This document shows positions 11,887-53,532 of a DNA stretch of 64,000 nt, one piece after another. The translations under genes were made by a program, and so were the position numbers. Under the pieces are notes generated by a model. It made no database searches. It was not told where the DNA came from and was given only the letters and a program-made list of their open reading frames with translations. This stretch comes from Euzebya rosea (GTDB lineage Bacteria > Actinomycetota > Nitriliruptoria > Euzebyales > Euzebyaceae). Each line of letters starts with the position of its first letter. Position 1 is the first letter of the stretch. The stretch is from positions 186,001 to 250,000 of the forward strand of contig NZ_PGDQ01000005.1 of NCBI RefSeq assembly GCF_003073135.1. The letters are read 5' to 3'.

Positions 11887-11929
11887 GTGTGTCGCCGAAC
11901 CGGCCACCCGTCGCCGTTGGCCGACACAC
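11887..11929 (+). repeat. Palindromic repeat family A, copy A1
   Basis: This 43-nt element has arms GTGTGTCG (11887-11894) and CGACACAC (11922-11929) around a semi-conserved core starting CCGAACCGGCCAC. It is the first member of a doublet with A2. The same element occurs at 51197, 51270, 52380 and 52452, always in pairs and in this orientation. Confidence 0.85.
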
Positions 11930-11959
11930 GTGACGATCGGCCCGACTCGGCTCCGGGCC

Positions 11960-12002
11960 GTGTGTCGTCGAAGCGGCCACCAGTCGCGATTGGGCGACAC
12001 AC
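11960..12002 (+). repeat. Palindromic repeat family A, copy A2
   Basis: 43 nt with the same GTGTGTCG/CGACACAC arms as A1, starting 73 nt after it. The doublet fills most of the 251-nt gap between the CWB2 gene and the M15 peptidase gene. Unlike the other two doublets it has no DUF559-type gene beside it. Confidence 0.85.
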
Positions 12003-26132: not shown

Positions 26133-26318
26133 GTCCCCGCCCTCGACCACCCCACGCTTCGGGTTGACGGTGTTGTCGTGTACGCGGCGTTACGTCTTCG
26201 TGTCGCGTCCTGGAGACATGGCCGACCAACCGGGCACACGTGCGCCGCCCGGCCGTTCGTGCCTCGGGCCGGCGATCTCGGCCCAGCGATCCCGGCCCGG
26301 CCAACCTGGCTTCTCCCA

Positions 26319-26364
26319 ACGATTGTGGCCGTGGGTGCACCCGTGCCCCGATCTCCACAATCGT
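26319..26364 (+). repeat. Palindromic repeat family B, copy B1
   Basis: This 46-nt element has perfect 10-bp arms ACGATTGTGG (26319-26328) and CCACAATCGT (26355-26364), with a GGGTGCACCC palindrome in the middle. It pairs with B2. The 449-nt gap 26133-26581 otherwise holds no gene. Confidence 0.85.
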
Positions 26365-26400
26365 GGCCGGAAGCCGCCTTCGGAGGATTGACGTCCCTCG

Positions 26401-26446
26401 ACGATTGTGGCGACGGGTGCACCCGTGCTCCGTTCCGCACAATCGT
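26401..26446 (+). repeat. Palindromic repeat family B, copy B2
   Basis: Same 46-nt design as B1, starting exactly 82 nt after it, with arms ACGATTGTG/CACAATCGT and central GGGTGCACCC. The 3' flank GGTCGGAAGCCAATCG is shared in form with B3. It ends 135 nt before the DUF559-type gene. Confidence 0.85.
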
Positions 26447-26581
26447 GGTCGGAAGCCAATCGGGGCGTCCGCGACGGCCGGCCCCGGCGGGCAGCCCCTG
26501 CCGGCGACGTCTCGACGGCCGGCTGGACTCGCCTGTGGACAACCCTGATCACGGATTCTTGGTTCAGCGCATGATGCCTGG

Positions 26582-27472
26582 ATGGAACATCTACACGGGG
26601 CGGTTTCACTCGAGCAGTTCAAGGAGGCTGGTCTTTCGCGGTGGACGGTGAACCGTCGCGTTCGGTCCGGCGACCTGCGACGTGTCGCGGGGACGGTCCA
26701 CGCGCTTCCGGGCGCCCCCGACGGACTTCGGCTCACCCTCGCCGGTGGGGTACTGGCCGTGGGGTCTCCGGTGTGCGTCACCGGTGCCAGCGCCGCGCAC
26801 CTACGGGGCTTCCATCCTCGGGAGCCGAAGGTCGGTCACTTGGCCACCCCGGCGACTCGTGCGCGCTTCGTCCTGCCGGGCTTGGATGTCCGTCGGGAGG
26901 TCCACTTCAACGCGATCCCGCTGCAGGTCGTGGATGGGCTGGTCTGCGCGGGCGTCAACTGGACGTTGATGGACGCGGCCAGGGACCTGGGGGAGGAGGA
27001 GCTCGCTCGCGCCATCGCGAGGGCGGACGCCCTTCGCAACACCTCCCTCAACAGCCTTGCGTCGGCTGCCGCGTCGCGAGGACGGTGGCATGGCTCTGCC
27101 CGCTTCCGGAAGGTCCTGGCGGAGCTCAACGGTGAGCTGACGCATTCCGGGGACGAACGGCGAGCCCGGCGGTACCTCCGTGACGTGGGACTCGACCCCC
27201 ACCCTCGTCCCTACGACGTCGTCGTCAACGGGAGGACTATCGCCCAAGCCGACATCGCGTTCCTTGCCGAACGTCTCGACGTCGAGATCGACGGGCCCTC
27301 TCACTTCTTCCAAGGAGCCCAGACGAAGGATCGTCGCCGCGACCGCCGGATGCAGGCCGCCGGTTGGATCGTCCTGCGCTTCACCGTCTACGAGGTGCGG
27401 AACGACCCCGAACGCGTGGTCGCGGAGATCCTCGACGCCCTCGCCACCCGTCGCCGCCAGCTCTCGAGCTGA
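26582..27472 (+). CDS. DUF559-type putative nuclease with AbiEi-like N-terminal domain (locus 1)
   Basis: The 296-residue protein starts with a winged-helix, AbiEi-antitoxin-like segment ('LEQFKEAGLSRWTVNRRVRSG', about 10-30). The C-terminal ~110 residues have a Vsr/DUF559-like PD-(D/E)xK pattern: Asp in 'IAQADIAF', Glu in 'LDVEIDGPSHF', a K-D-x3-D-R segment and 'GWIVLRFTVYEV'. Nuclease activity is inferred from this fold signature only. It shares architecture with the gene at 51354-52274. Family B palindrome doublets lie on both sides (26319-26446 and 27559-27686). Alternatives are an orphan antitoxin-like regulator or a repair endonuclease. Confidence 0.72.
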   Translation: MEHLHGAVSLEQFKEAGLSRWTVNRRVRSGDLRRVAGTVHALPGAPDGLRLTLAGGVLAVGSPVCVTGASAAHLRGFHPREPKVGHLATPATRARFVLPGLDVRREVHFNAIPLQVVDGLVCAGVNWTLMDAARDLGEEELARAIARADALRNTSLNSLASAAASRGRWHGSARFRKVLAELNGELTHSGDERRARRYLRDVGLDPHPRPYDVVVNGRTIAQADIAFLAERLDVEIDGPSHFFQGAQTKDRRRDRRMQAAGWIVLRFTVYEVRNDPERVVAEILDALATRRRQLSS

Positions 27473-27558
27473 CGAGACCGAACGCCAGGTACGCGTTCCC
27501 TCGAACGTGGACCGGTCGCGTTCGCTCACCCGCGACCGGCTGAACCTGGCATTTCGCG

Positions 27559-27604
27559 ACAATTGGCGCGAACGGTGCACGGGCGCACCCGTTCCTACAA
27601 TCGT
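27559..27604 (+). repeat. Palindromic repeat family B, copy B3 (degenerate)
   Basis: The 3' half (TACAATCGT and the following GGTCCGACGCCAATCG) matches B2 closely. The 5' arm is diverged (ACAATTGGCG). The inner part is itself palindromic (AACGGTGC ... GCACCCGTT). It begins 87 nt after the stop codon of the DUF559-type gene. Confidence 0.7.
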
Positions 27605-27640
27605 GGTCCGACGCCAATCGCCTGAGACCGGCATTCGACG

Positions 27641-27686
27641 ACGATTGTGGTCAGGGGTGCGGGGGTGCTCCGTTCGCTACGATCGT
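27641..27686 (+). repeat. Palindromic repeat family B, copy B4
   Basis: 46 nt with 5' arm ACGATTGTGG and 3' arm ACGATCGT, starting exactly 82 nt after B3, the same pitch as B1-B2. It completes the doublet downstream of the locus-1 gene and lies upstream of ruvX. Confidence 0.8.
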
Positions 27687-27784
27687 CGGCCAATGCCAAT
27701 CACAGTGCCGACCCCACGCAGCTGCGACCAGCCCCATTGCGGACGGTGCGCGGACGGCGGTGCCCGTCCACACCCGTGTGGCCT

Positions 27785-32235: not shown

Positions 32236-33924
32236 TTGCACGCCACACGCCAGCTCTCGGATGTCCTCTTGGAGGAGGGACTGATCTCCTCCGAGGACCT
32301 CACTCGCGCACGCGAGGAGCAGGAGCGGTCCGGTCGATCCCTCGGCCGCGTGCTGATCGAGATGGGCCTGTTCACCGAGGCCGGCCTGGTGGCGGCGCTC
32401 GCCAAGCACCTGGGCCTGGAGTTCGTCGAGCTCGCCGAGCAGGACGTCGACCACGTGGCGGCCACGATGCTGCCCGACCACATGGCCCGGCGGTACTGCG
32501 TCTTCCCGTTCGGGTTCGACGAGGAGGGCAAGCTCAAGGTCGCCATGAGCGACCCGTCCAACGTGATCGCCCTGGACGACATCCGGACGGTCTGCGACAA
32601 GGACGTGCAGCCGGTCGTCGCCACCCGCGGCGACATCATGGCGGCGCTGGACAAGTACGGGTCGCTGGGCGGGGACTCCGTCGACGACCTCGCCGGCGAC
32701 CTGATGATGAGCGAGGAGGACGACCTCGACGCCGTCGAGGCGGCCGACGCCATCGACGATGCGCCGATCGTCAAGTTCGTCAACGCGCTGATCAGCCAGG
32801 CGGTGGGGGACCGCGCCTCCGACATCCACATCGAGCCGCAGGAGACCGAGGTCCGCGTGCGCTACCGCATCGACGGTGTGCTGCACGAGATCACGACCCA
32901 GTCCAAGCGGATCCACGCCGGCGTGGTGTCCCGGCTGAAGATCATGGCCGACCTCGACATCGCCGAGCGGCGAGTCCCGCAGGACGGCCGCATCTCAGTG
33001 AAGGCGGCCGGCAAGAAGATCGACCTGCGTGTCTCGACCCTTCCGACGGTGTACGGGGAGAAAGTCGTGATGCGCATCCTGGACAAGTCCTCGATCCTGC
33101 TGGACCTCTCCGACCTCGGGTTCACCGAGCACAACTACAAGATGTACGCGGAGTCCTTCACCAAGCCGTACGGGCTGATCCTGGTGACCGGGCCGACGGG
33201 GTCGGGCAAGTCGACGTCGCTGTACGCCACGCTGAACAAGATCTCCAAGCCCGAGATCAACATCGTGACCGTCGAGGACCCGGTGGAGTACCGGCTGCCG
33301 GGGATCAGCCAGGTGCAGACCAACAAGAAGGCCGGCCTGACGTTCGGTGCGGCGCTGCGGTCGATCCTGCGTCAGGACCCCGACGTCGTGCTGGTCGGTG
33401 AGATGCGTGACCAGGAGACCGCCCAGATCGGCCTCGAGGCCGCGCTGACCGGCCACCTCGTGCTGTCGACCCTGCACACCAACGACGCCCCGTCGGCCGT
33501 GACCCGCCTGACCGAGATGGGCGTCGACCCGTTCATCGTCGCGTCGGCGGCCGACTGTGTGCTGGCCCAGCGCCTGGCCCGGCGGCTGTGCAGCAAGTGC
33601 AAGGAGGAGTACCGGCCGACGGTCGAGGAGCTCCACACCGCTGGTTTGCCGGTGACGGAGGAGGACCTCGACCGGTTCCCGTCGTTGCACCGGGCCGTCG
33701 GCTGCACCCACTGCGGCAACACCGGCTACCGAGGCCGCCTGGCTGTCCACGAGATCATGCGCATCAACGAGGACATCGAGCGCCTGATCGTCACTAAGGC
33801 CTCCACCGACGAGATCGCCGAGGCCGCCCGCGCCAACGGCATGCGCACCCTCCGCGAGGACGGCCTCTCCAAGGTCCTCAAGGGCCACACGACGCTGGAA
33901 GAAATCGGCCGCGTCATTGTCTGA
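32236..33924 (+). CDS. pilB: Type IV pilus assembly ATPase PilB (GspE family)
   Basis: The 562-residue hexameric ATPase drives pilus extension. Residues ~1-140 are a T2SSE_N/MshEN domain ('LSDVLLEEGLISSEDL', 'SLGRVLIEMGL'), a fold known to bind cyclic di-GMP in MshE. The motor follows with Walker A 'GPTGSGKSTSLYATL', the Asp box, Walker B 'DPDVVLVGEMRDQETA' and the His box. The zinc tetracysteine is 'CSKCKEEY ... CTHCGNTGY'. The start is probably TTG at 32236, with weak upstream signals. The final codons and stop lie in the first copy of a 72-bp tandem repeat. Confidence 0.95.
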   Translation: MHATRQLSDVLLEEGLISSEDLTRAREEQERSGRSLGRVLIEMGLFTEAGLVAALAKHLGLEFVELAEQDVDHVAATMLPDHMARRYCVFPFGFDEEGKLKVAMSDPSNVIALDDIRTVCDKDVQPVVATRGDIMAALDKYGSLGGDSVDDLAGDLMMSEEDDLDAVEAADAIDDAPIVKFVNALISQAVGDRASDIHIEPQETEVRVRYRIDGVLHEITTQSKRIHAGVVSRLKIMADLDIAERRVPQDGRISVKAAGKKIDLRVSTLPTVYGEKVVMRILDKSSILLDLSDLGFTEHNYKMYAESFTKPYGLILVTGPTGSGKSTSLYATLNKISKPEINIVTVEDPVEYRLPGISQVQTNKKAGLTFGAALRSILRQDPDVVLVGEMRDQETAQIGLEAALTGHLVLSTLHTNDAPSAVTRLTEMGVDPFIVASAADCVLAQRLARRLCSKCKEEYRPTVEELHTAGLPVTEEDLDRFPSLHRAVGCTHCGNTGYRGRLAVHEIMRINEDIERLIVTKASTDEIAEAARANGMRTLREDGLSKVLKGHTTLEEIGRVIV

Positions 33925-34089
33925 GCGGGATCGAGAATCCCACTGGCTCGGAGATCCCGCGAGTTCGGGCGAAGCCCGTCAATGAACATTGTCTGAGCGG
34001 GATCGAGAATCCGACTGGCTCGGAGATCCCGCGAGTTCGGGCGAAGCCCGTCGATGAACATTGTCTGAGCGGGATCGAGAATCCCACTG
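33916..34089 (+). repeat. 72-bp tandem repeat, two full copies plus a 30-nt partial
   Basis: Units start at 33916, 33988 and 34060; the third stops after 30 nt. Copies 1 and 2 differ at only two positions. Copy 1 includes the last two codons and stop of pilB, so that end was duplicated. Each full unit carries GCGGGATC/GATCCCGC inverted arms and a CGGGC-GAA-GCCCG hairpin, and so could be a reiterated terminator. Two 22-bp units (34089-34110 and 34111-34132), beginning GCCGGATGGAATCG, follow directly. Confidence 0.9.
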
Positions 34090-50687: not shown

Positions 50688-51118
50688 CCGCCGCCGAGGA
50701 CTCCGTACGGGGGTCCGGGCGGTCGATGTCACGGACCGAGGCCCGGACGAAGGCGCTCGAGGTCCTGTTCGCTGCGGACCTGCGCGGTGTCCCGGCAGCC
50801 ACCCTGCTGGACGACCCCGAGGGCGGCTGGGTCGATGCGTTCACCCGCACGCTGGTCACGACCGTCGCCGACAACCGGTACGACATCGACCAGCTCATCG
50901 GCGAACGGGCCGAGGGCTGGACGCTGGACCGCATGCCCGGTGTGGACCGCAACGTCCTGCGCCTGGGCCTCGCCGAGCTGCTCTACATCGACGAGGTCCC
51001 CCCCGCCGTCGCCATCGACGAAGCCGTCGAGCTGGCCAAGTCGCTGTCGACCGACTCCTCCCCCCGCTTCGTCAACGGCATCCTCGCCGCCGTCGCCCGC
51101 GACCGCGACCTCCTCTAG
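50684..51118 (+). CDS. nusB: Transcription antitermination factor NusB
   Basis: The 144-residue all-helical protein binds boxA RNA with NusE in rRNA antitermination. Signatures are 'RTEARTKALEVLFAADLRG', 'LDRMPGVDRNVLRLGLAELLY' and 'AVAIDEAVELAKSLSTDSSPRFVNGILAAV'. ATG 50684 overlaps the efp stop; a second Met after ~18 residues is possible. It ends the aroC operon. A family A palindrome doublet follows in the convergent gap. Confidence 0.95.
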   Translation: MTAAEDSVRGSGRSMSRTEARTKALEVLFAADLRGVPAATLLDDPEGGWVDAFTRTLVTTVADNRYDIDQLIGERAEGWTLDRMPGVDRNVLRLGLAELLYIDEVPPAVAIDEAVELAKSLSTDSSPRFVNGILAAVARDRDLL

Positions 51119-51196
51119 CCCGTCGTCCTGCACGGCCGGGTCCGGGGACGTCGCGGTTGGGCGCATCCGTCGGGGCTGCGGCTCGTCACGGCCCAG

Positions 51197-51239
51197 GTGT
51201 GTCGTCGAACCGGCCACATGTCGTGGCTGGCCGACACAC
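51197..51239 (+). repeat. Palindromic repeat family A, copy A3
   Basis: 43 nt with arms GTGTGTCG (51197-51204) and CGACACAC (51232-51239). The inner CCGGCCAC/GTGGCTGG also pairs, giving a two-tier hairpin. It lies between nusB and the convergent DUF559-type gene. Confidence 0.88.
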
Positions 51240-51269
51240 CCCAGGGGCCACGCCGGGACCGGTGCCTAC

Positions 51270-51312
51270 CTGTGTCGCCGAACCGGCCACATGTCGTGGT
51301 TGGGCGACACAC
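51270..51312 (+). repeat. Palindromic repeat family A, copy A4
   Basis: 43 nt starting 73 nt after A3, same orientation. The outermost base of the 5' arm is C instead of G; otherwise the arms pair. Inner CCGGCCAC/GTGGTTGG pairs with two G-U. It ends 42 nt before the 3' end of the locus-2 nuclease gene. Confidence 0.87.
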
Positions 51313-51353
51313 CCAAGGGGTCGAGGGCATGGGCGGACCAGCGGTCACGACGG

Positions 51354-52274
51354 TCAGGCGCGTGGGCGAACGACCGCTCGGACCTGTACTTCGACGTCGC
51401 CAGGTCGATCGTGGACGTCGGCGTAGGTGAAGCGGAGGAGGGTGTAGCGGCCGAGCACGACGGCGTTGCCCTTGACGTTGTCGCGCTGGCGCGCCCGACC
51501 GTCGGCGTGGAACCGGAGGCCGTCCAGCTCGACGATCACCCGGTGGTGCTCCGACACGGCATCCATCTCGCCAGCTGACGGGGCGTGCAGCGGCACGACG
51601 TTCGGCTCGACGTCGTGCAGGCCGGCGCGACGGAGGAGGGGAAGGGCCGTCCGCTCGAGGTCGGACCGGAACCGCTGCGGCCCCCTCGCCGACGCGACCC
51701 GGAGGATCGTCCGCACCCCCCGTCGACCACGCTGCAGCGCCTCGCTCCGAAGGACCAGGGTGTCTCGGTCCGCCAGGCCGGAGTACAGCACCTCGTCGAC
51801 CAGCCGCAGCAGCGTTCCCGTCGTCGATCCGCTCGCGAGGTCGATGACGGCACGTTCGACGGTCGTGGTCGGGATGCCCTGGACCGTCACCAGGTCCAGG
51901 TCCTCCAGCTGGCGCGTCCGGTGCACGATCACGTTCGTCTCGAGCTCGGGCCGGGATGGGCCCGCGACTACCACCTCGGGTCGCCGCGGGTTGCCGGGCA
52001 ACCAGCGCAGGCCGTGCAGCAGCAGCGCGCTGTGACGGGCGGCGAACGCAGGACGTTCAGCCAGCCTGATGGCGGCTGCCACCTGCTCCTGGACCGTCCG
52101 GGCGGAGGAGGGGGAGGTGAGCAGCCCCCGACGCGGCCGGCGGAGCTCGCGTCGGTCCACCAGCCGACGGAGCTGCTCGGGGGAGAAACCTGCCCGCTGC
52201 GCCTCCTCGACCGTGAGGGCCTGATGATTGTGGAGCAGGAGGTGGTGGAGCCGTTCGCGTTGCGCGGGTGTCAT
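51354..52274 (-). CDS. DUF559-type putative nuclease with AbiEi-like N-terminal domain (locus 2)
   Basis: The 306-residue protein has the same layout as the gene at 26582. An N-terminal AbiEi-like winged helix ('TVEEAQRAGFSPEQLRRLVDRRELRR', about 21-46) is followed by a middle domain with 'TTTVERAVIDLAS'. The C-terminal Vsr/DUF559-like core has Asp in 'GEMDAVSEHH', Glu in 'VIVELDGLRFH', an Arg/Lys/Asp helix and 'YTLLRFTYADV'. Overall identity to locus 1 looks low, so the two are distant paralogues. Family A palindrome doublets lie on both sides (51197-51312 and 52380-52494). ATG 52274 is chosen because it begins just before the conserved domain. Confidence 0.72.
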   Translation of the reverse strand: MTPAQRERLHHLLLHNHQALTVEEAQRAGFSPEQLRRLVDRRELRRPRRGLLTSPSSARTVQEQVAAAIRLAERPAFAARHSALLLHGLRWLPGNPRRPEVVVAGPSRPELETNVIVHRTRQLEDLDLVTVQGIPTTTVERAVIDLASGSTTGTLLRLVDEVLYSGLADRDTLVLRSEALQRGRRGVRTILRVASARGPQRFRSDLERTALPLLRRAGLHDVEPNVVPLHAPSAGEMDAVSEHHRVIVELDGLRFHADGRARQRDNVKGNAVVLGRYTLLRFTYADVHDRPGDVEVQVRAVVRPRA

Positions 52275-52379
52275 CGCCCGATCGTCGTCGGGGTCTGGCG
52301 CGTCAGGCGGAGAACCTCCACGCCCTGTGGACAACCCGGCCCGGCGGCCCTGCCGCCCGTCGCCGAGCCACGGCCCCAG

Positions 52380-52422
52380 GTGTGTCGTCGAACCGGCCAC
52401 CTCTCGGCGTTGGGCGACACAC
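52380..52422 (+). repeat. Palindromic repeat family A, copy A5
   Basis: 43 nt with arms GTGTGTCG (52380-52387) and CGACACAC (52415-52422). It begins 106 nt upstream of the start codon of the minus-strand locus-2 gene. Confidence 0.88.
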
Positions 52423-52451
52423 CACGGGGCGCGCCGGCCCGGCCCCCAGCG

Positions 52452-52494
52452 GTGTGTCGTCGAACCGGCCGCATGTCGTCGTTGGGCGACACAC
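52452..52494 (+). repeat. Palindromic repeat family A, copy A6
   Basis: 43 nt starting 72 nt after A5, same orientation and arms. It closes the doublet between the locus-2 gene and the amidohydrolase gene, which ends at 52531. Confidence 0.88.
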
Positions 52495-52530
52495 CACGGG
52501 TAGCGACGGCACCACCCGGGGCCGAAGGGG

Positions 52531-53532
52531 TCAGCGGCGGCCGAGGCGTTGGACGGTCTGCTCGACGTCCATCCCGTGGAGGCGGAGCAGGTTCTCCCCG
52601 AGGATCTTGCGCTTGGCCTGGTCGGTGAGCTGCGGGTAGCCGTAGCCCTCGACCATGTCCTGCGGGATCTCGAAGTCCATGAACGCCTCGAGCGCCCACT
52701 GGGGGTGGAAGATCGGCGCCTCGCTGCCGTAGACGATCTTGTCCTCCCCACACCAGAACAGCAGCTTGCCGATGATCTCGGCGAACATGCGCGGTGACCG
52801 CACCACGAAGTCGATGGTGGCAGCCAACGACGCGTAGAGGTTGGGGTGGCGGATCAGCTGCCAGCAGGTCTCGTCGAGGAACGGCAAGCCGACGTGGTAG
52901 ATGATGAAGTTGAGGTCCGGGAAGGCGGCCGCCGCTCCGTCCATGTCCCACGTCTGCGTGTGCTCGATCGGCTGCGGGCCGAGCGGCACGCCCTTGTGCA
53001 CCCCGATGACGTCGACCCCGAGCTCCTGGGCCTTCTCGAAGATGGGAAAGGCGATCTTGGGGTCGTCCATGCGCCACGGGATCGGCTGACCGTAGTCGTA
53101 GCGAGTGTTGTAGAACTTGAAGCCCCTGGCGCCGTGCTCTCGGACCTGCAGCTCCATCTCGTCGAGCGCCCGACGGCCCTCCATCGGGTTGACGGTGCCC
53201 CAGAAGACGATCCGGTCAGGGTCGCGGCTGGCCAGCTCGGCGCACTCCTGCCACGGCGACAGCCCGTCCTTGAACAGGTCGGTCAGCGGCAGCGGCATGG
53301 AGATCAGCATGTCGGTGTCGGACTGGTCGAAGACCATCTCCTGGATCTCGGAGATGTCCCACTGCTTGAGCCACTCCTCGGCGGGCAGGACGGTCTGGCC
53401 GTCGGGCGTCAGGGTGGCGTGGAAGGCGTAGAGGTGGTTGACGAACATCTCCCCGCCGCGGCCGAGCGCGTTCTTGAGGTCGGCGTTGAACGGGTGGGCG
53501 ACGCCGTCGAAGACGAACGCATCACGGATCAT
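52531..53532 (-). CDS. Amidohydrolase-2 family protein
   Basis: The 333-residue protein is a TIM-barrel metal-dependent hydrolase of the amidohydrolase 2/ACMSD-like type. Visible blocks are 'DGVAHPFN' (the first His), 'GFKFYNTRYDYG', 'VIGVHKGVPLG', 'FIIYHVGLPFLDE' with a metal-site His, and 'KIVYGSEAPIFHPQW'. Family members hydrolyse C-N bonds or decarboxylate; the reaction here is open. It sits 20 nt downstream of a DUF59 gene. The same pairing is known to me from soluble di-iron (propane-type) monooxygenase clusters in actinobacteria, but no monooxygenase gene is present here. Confidence 0.82.
   Translation of the reverse strand: MIRDAFVFDGVAHPFNADLKNALGRGGEMFVNHLYAFHATLTPDGQTVLPAEEWLKQWDISEIQEMVFDQSDTDMLISMPLPLTDLFKDGLSPWQECAELASRDPDRIVFWGTVNPMEGRRALDEMELQVREHGARGFKFYNTRYDYGQPIPWRMDDPKIAFPIFEKAQELGVDVIGVHKGVPLGPQPIEHTQTWDMDGAAAAFPDLNFIIYHVGLPFLDETCWQLIRHPNLYASLAATIDFVVRSPRMFAEIIGKLLFWCGEDKIVYGSEAPIFHPQWALEAFMDFEIPQDMVEGYGYPQLTDQAKRKILGENLLRLHGMDVEQTVQRLGRR

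Follow-up and report, generated by a model that had tools for sequence, protein, structure and literature searches.

Why does a predicted nuclease gene of Euzebya rosea lie between two pairs of palindromes, and do gene and palindromes form one system? The gene, at what we call locus 2, is on the reverse strand at 51354–52274 (-) of the 64,000-nt stretch of DNA analysed here (the window), and encodes a 306-residue protein, P0001, that open reading frame and domain searches identify as an AbiEi-DUF559 fusion. Two copies of a palindrome (family A) are found on each side of it by an arm search and folding. The left doublet consists of 51198–51238 (+) and 51271–51311 (+), 73 nt apart, and the right doublet of 52381–52421 (+) and 52453–52493 (+), 72 nt apart, in agreement with an earlier note on this DNA that had described doublets on both sides.

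All four palindromes are imperfect and share one orientation. Three of them have the full arms GTGTGTCG/CGACACAC; the second (51271–51311) has an arm one base shorter, because its left side reads CTGTGTCG. In single-stranded form, each is more stably folded than almost all of its shuffles (z -2.4 to -3.5). The family A palindrome has seven outer base pairs, and in 55 copies all except the outermost are almost never broken and the GGC of the loop is invariant. Since the outer stem is nearly invariant, there is little stem covariation to count. An Rfam search of 51000–52700 gave no match. Elsewhere, the window contains two head-to-tail copies of 72 nt each (33915–34058) that are 97% identical and have hairpin-like halves; these too have no match in Rfam.

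P0001 is likely a DNA-cutting protein, with an AbiEi-like DNA-binding part fused to a DUF559 nuclease. Pfam identifies only AbiEi_4 at residues 13–51 (E 1.9e-6) and DUF559 at 237–300 (E 1.1e-4), both over the curated cut-offs, and no HUH Y1 tyrosine nuclease (IS200/IS605-like). Residues 4–189 match AbiEi in PADLOC (E 4.7e-24). The protein can be divided into a winged helix and AbiEi body (4–189) and a Vsr-like predicted nuclease (about 200–303). Among 23 aligned homologues, D238, H256 and D265 never vary, and at least 90% of the sequences have S204, E207, E249 and G252; we take these to be the residues expected of a Vsr-like PD-(D/E)XK site. A PDB profile search gives 3hrl, an endonuclease-like protein, as the best match of known structure (E 1.2e-4). 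An AlphaFold model (four sequences) is confident for the winged helix and mostly of low confidence for the nuclease part.

The genes neighbouring that for P0001 are efp, nusB and an amidohydrolase gene. No AbiEii (DUF1814) toxin gene is adjacent, and a type IV toxin-antitoxin reading was ruled out on this ground. The 5.5-Mb genome under study (G000) has one close copy of the gene, which is thus single copy for its family. A tblastn search of plasmid records with P0001 gave no match, and a search for related loci in named genomes found two distant loci and nothing closer.

Hairpins are common between genes, and they could flank this one by chance or as terminators. We find this barely credible. 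Arm pairs of 7 nt at doublet distance occur six times in the window (the four locus 2 palindromes and a doublet at 11888/11961) against 0.01 expected, and none of 100 shuffles reached six. For a wider comparison, we scored the best local alignment of the left 500 nt with the right 500 nt of each gene, taking as controls 30 PIN-domain loci from the same genomes, in which the central 460 nt took the place of a gene. The score is above 33, the top score among the controls, in 28 of 35 homologues from related genomes and in 0 of the 30 controls; the other seven homologues have no detectable shared bracket. In the wider phylum, probably Actinomycetota, shared palindromes are present at about 13 of the 22 loci with adequate flanks, and a profile search detects proteins of this kind in 68 of 149 genomes, with up to 15 per genome. 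The earlier note had argued that the arrangement is not a coincidence, and had pointed to homologues without palindromes as the observation that would speak against it. Palindromes do recur beside homologues throughout the phylum, and we reject coincidence on the basis of the shuffles, the PIN-domain controls and the co-occurrence of repeat and gene described below.

Family A is dispersed through the genome. A search for perfect 7-nt arms finds 27 copies and a looser 41-nt consensus finds 38, of which 36 (counted by hand) are in doublets 72–74 nt apart; a reversed control pattern of the consensus has zero matches. The dispersed doublets have a direct orientation and the same 72–74 nt spacing. 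One that lacks a DUF559 gene is in the window at 11888–12001 (+), with copies at 11888–11928 and 11961–12001 that are 73 nt apart (arm search; the orthologous site in the sister genome G003 is L193). Family A is present in two of 61 related genomes, G000 (38 copies) and G003 (18 copies), and these are exactly the genomes with a close P0001 homologue (66% identity in G003, the next best being 43% in G002). This restriction of the copies to genomes with the gene also argues against chance.

Other DUF559 genes of this genome have palindromes of their own. Locus 1 (26582–27472 (+), identified by homology and domain searches) is a second AbiEi-DUF559 gene, 23% identical to P0001. As the earlier note had it, the two share a domain layout, with the AbiEi_4 match of locus 1 falling just under the cut-off. 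A palindrome search finds a doublet of a different family (family B) on its left (26307–26457 (+)) and on its right (27547–27697 (+)), each with copies 82 nt apart. Of 21 genomes searched, family B is present in G000 (10) and G003 (2) and in none of the other 19. A third DUF559 gene (G000:C4:207684-208541; L062 1185-2072; left versus right flank score 165) has family C doublets on both sides, 72 nt apart and inverted left to right. The repeats of loci 1 and 2 do differ in sequence and in spacing (72–73 nt for A, 82 nt for B), and for all three DUF559 genes examined here the suggestion of a separate repeat type per gene is borne out by position.

The two members of a doublet resemble each other more than they resemble the rest of the family, with agreement at 38.9 of 41 positions within doublets versus 35.5 of 41 between doublets (permutation p below 5e-5). 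The spacers of different doublets differ about as much as shuffled sequences do (0.49 vs 0.44). As the spacers are not common to different doublets, any copying would need to swap palindromes without their spacers, unless spacers change very fast. Over 23 loci with unrelated families, doublet spacings cluster near 51, 61, 72 and 82 nt, and a Rayleigh scan peaks at a period of 10.5–10.75 (R 0.59, p about 4e-4); both results are exploratory, as some short offsets may be inside one palindrome and the loci share ancestry. At face value the spacing is helix-phased, with both palindromes on one side of the helix, which suggests that doublets are bound as double-stranded DNA.

The gene is in one place in G000 and G003, behind nusB. 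Between these genomes efp is 96% and nusB 98% identical, whereas the DUF559 protein is only 66% identical. In G003 the four palindromes that flank the gene are of a different subtype, A' (CGTGTCGG...CCCGACACG). G003 has 33 copies of A', many in 73-nt doublets. G000 has 12, with no A' doublets under the search threshold; a partner check of ten of these copies found two with a weak partner-like stretch at 69–72 nt.

Fourteen G000 doublets were mapped onto G003. Thirteen are alignable, and all 13 sites have palindromes or their remnants at the same place in G003, with flanks that are 84–94% identical bar one at 69% (L010). At five diagnostic positions, every G000 copy at the aligned sites is A-type, whereas in G003 one or both copies are A' at most sites and the rest are mostly intermediate. 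We conclude, from a comparison of this one species pair, that the dispersed palindromes kept their places while their sequence changed in concert with the resident gene. Arrays also can grow by one unit, since a palindrome triplet in 73-nt steps (G003:C1:766573-766759, L196) is found where G000 holds a doublet. In another genome, G001, the place of one G000 doublet (L204 331–374) is occupied by a lone, perfect hairpin that belongs to a third subtype (GTGTGTCGGGAGACC...GGTCTCCCGACACA).

The orthologous sites also bear on an ordinary transposon, in which the palindromes would be ends and the gene-free doublets non-autonomous, MITE-like copies that still jump. This reading could explain the dispersed intergenic copies, a gene with repeated ends, and the absence of the gene from the nusB site of G002. 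It is improbable, as the genome has only one gene of this family, whose location is shared by G000 and G003, all 13 alignable doublet sites hold palindromes or remnants in G003, and neither a transposase domain nor a target-site duplication was seen. None of those 13 sites is cleanly empty, and recent transposition between the two genomes was rejected. At two doublet sites palindromes are missing from G002, but its intergenic DNA fails to align there.

Position, dispersal, co-occurrence, homogenisation and joint change in the sister genome tie the gene to its repeats as partners. The co-divergence of proteins and flanking palindromes that the earlier note proposed to look for is clear for G000 and G003. 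It is visible among the nearest relatives of P0001, in which the palindrome tip GTGTCG/CGACAC is concentrated (p 7e-4 when G000 and its G003 homologue are left out), but across all homologues the correlation of protein and whole-flank similarity is weak (Mantel r 0.10, p 0.04). Several protein pairs at 54–66% identity have unrelated palindromes, so turnover is fast.

For the working of this partnership we infer binding by the AbiEi part, cutting by the nuclease part and copying by repair. The AbiEi-like module would recognise its own palindrome next to its gene and at some 20 dispersed places, contacting two sites at once from one side of the DNA double helix. The Vsr-like nuclease fused to it would cut or nick at or near the recognised sites, and repair would copy one palindrome over another. 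Such copying could keep the members of a doublet and the genome-wide family alike, tracking the specificity of the resident protein, and over longer times may also seed new sites, as is thought for RAYTs with REPs. We give an even chance to the proposal that the gene and its doublets are one system in which the AbiEi part recognises its own palindrome, the nuclease cuts and repair copies the repeats. Counting against it are the weak co-divergence over the protein tree, the spacers that doublets do not share, the seven homologues with no detectable bracket, and, as regards mobility, the lack of a cleanly empty site between G000 and G003.

Its main rival is an operator model. Here an AbiEi-like regulator would bind the doublets to govern its own expression and that of a small regulon, the palindromes would track the protein through binding-site selection, and the nuclease domain would be inactive or otherwise used. 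AbiEi precedents autoregulate via paired inverted repeats (PMC7319586), the doublets look helix-phased, and the sites occupy matching positions in G000 and G003. The gene context of 15 dispersed sites speaks both ways: three adjoin divergent genes, as operators might, but four are between convergent and eight between tandem genes (orientation from GC frame only). Doublets are also on both sides of the gene, downstream included. Whole 41-nt palindromes, loops too, are homogenised within doublets, which is beyond the need of binding selection, and the active-site residues are conserved. We therefore consider the operator model unlikely, though it keeps a real share of our belief.

It is very improbable that the system serves immunity or restriction, with foreign DNA as the target of the nuclease and the genomic palindromes acting as marks or decoys to tune or block the enzyme. 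AbiEi does belong to phage-defence systems, and Vsr-like and PD-(D/E)XK nucleases occur in restriction systems. However, the genes adjacent to that for P0001 include neither a methyltransferase nor a DUF1814 toxin partner, and the homogenisation within doublets would be left without explanation.

The link between DUF559 genes and repeats may be widespread beyond the AbiEi fusions. A search with a family consensus as the query, in which the matched loci are real records, found stand-alone DUF559 genes in Proteobacteria, Deinococcus and cyanobacteria (L136-L156, plasmid and chromid records). Of these, 16 of 19 have a CTCCC-n-GGGAG hairpin within 350 nt, compared with 0–8% of 1-kb windows in three 50-kb stretches from the same records. 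The hairpins are the orphan CCCTCTCCC "triplex" (TM/PIT) repeats, described as conserved and abundant intrastrand triplex repeats with no mobility gene nearby (PMC4666352). The E. coli MG1655 DUF559 gene is ycjD (1351407-1351760 in NC_000913.3; L213 = 1349900-1353200), and TM repeat number 9 (PMC4666352; 1351204-1351239) is 168 nt from it. That stand-alone genes, ycjD included, adjoin these repeats is what suggests a wider link. A near match to the ycjD region is present in 3365 of 5426 E. coli genomes, so ycjD may be variably present. No direct link of CGTC REPs to DUF559 genes emerged; at those loci the hairpins are of the TM type.

Dispersed palindromes are among the commonest bacterial repeats, and several families have no known maintaining enzyme. 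The authors who described TM/PIT repeats found no mobility gene nearby, and none is known for CGTC REPs. If a nuclease family accompanies its own palindromes, it becomes a candidate partner for repeats of this kind, and DUF559 proteins gain a candidate function. With somewhat less than even confidence, we propose that bacteria have a second world of palindromic repeats, independent of RAYTs, whose general partners are DUF559 (Vsr-like) nucleases, and in which each nuclease would recognise its own doublet and rewrite all copies in place to its specificity. Stand-alone DUF559 proteins such as E. coli YcjD would do likewise for the orphan TM/PIT repeats of many phyla. Because many sites change in place with the gene, copying or conversion is testable in E. 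coli K-12 (ycjD).

How does locus 2 compare with known systems? TM/PIT repeats (PMC4666352) and CGTC REPs (PMC3733652) are, like family A, dispersed palindromes, for which the authors report no dedicated mobility gene. The TM/PIT repeats differ in sequence, and their partner would be a stand-alone DUF559 protein without AbiEi. The Vsr/DUF559 nucleases (E. coli YcjD; Caulobacter VsrA, PMC12907096) resemble the C-terminal domain of P0001, with conserved acidic and histidine residues. P0001 differs in its fusion to AbiEi, and no link to a cytosine methyltransferase was seen. In the open-access literature we found no earlier report of such a partnership or of cognate repeats for DUF559/Vsr proteins.

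The AbiE type IV toxin-antitoxin system (AbiEi, Rv2827c; PMC7319586) provides a likeness for the rest of the protein, an N-terminal winged helix with an AbiEi body. AbiEi and Rv2827c bind 23-bp inverted repeats in tandem, with no cross-binding (PMC7319586), a precedent for the recognition proposed here. In contrast to AbiE, P0001 has a fused nuclease domain, no AbiEii (DUF1814) gene, and palindromes both at its two sides and genome-wide.

The RAYT/TnpA-REP and REPIN systems (REPtron; PMC3116915, PMC8266576, PMC3733652) are like locus 2 in that palindromes flank the gene, matching palindromes are found in dispersed intergenic doublets, and the repeat type fits the gene. The RAYT enzyme, however, is an HUH Y1 transposase and P0001 an AbiEi-Vsr-like fusion, and REPIN doublets are inverted, whereas those of family A are direct. 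In the flanks that were read, no GTAG or CGTC tag was conspicuous beside the stem. Family A-type spacing also looks helix-phased, and its sites stay put while their sequence is rewritten. The system at locus 2 is not a RAYT, since it differs in both enzyme and doublet orientation. The analogy with RAYTs drawn in the earlier note thus stands at the level of function and genome anatomy and fails for the enzyme, which is unrelated to the RAYT HUH nuclease. Taken together, these comparisons point to a system that matches no known family, an undescribed RAYT/REP-like partnership built from unrelated parts, which would offer an independent, convergent counterpart to RAYT/REP.
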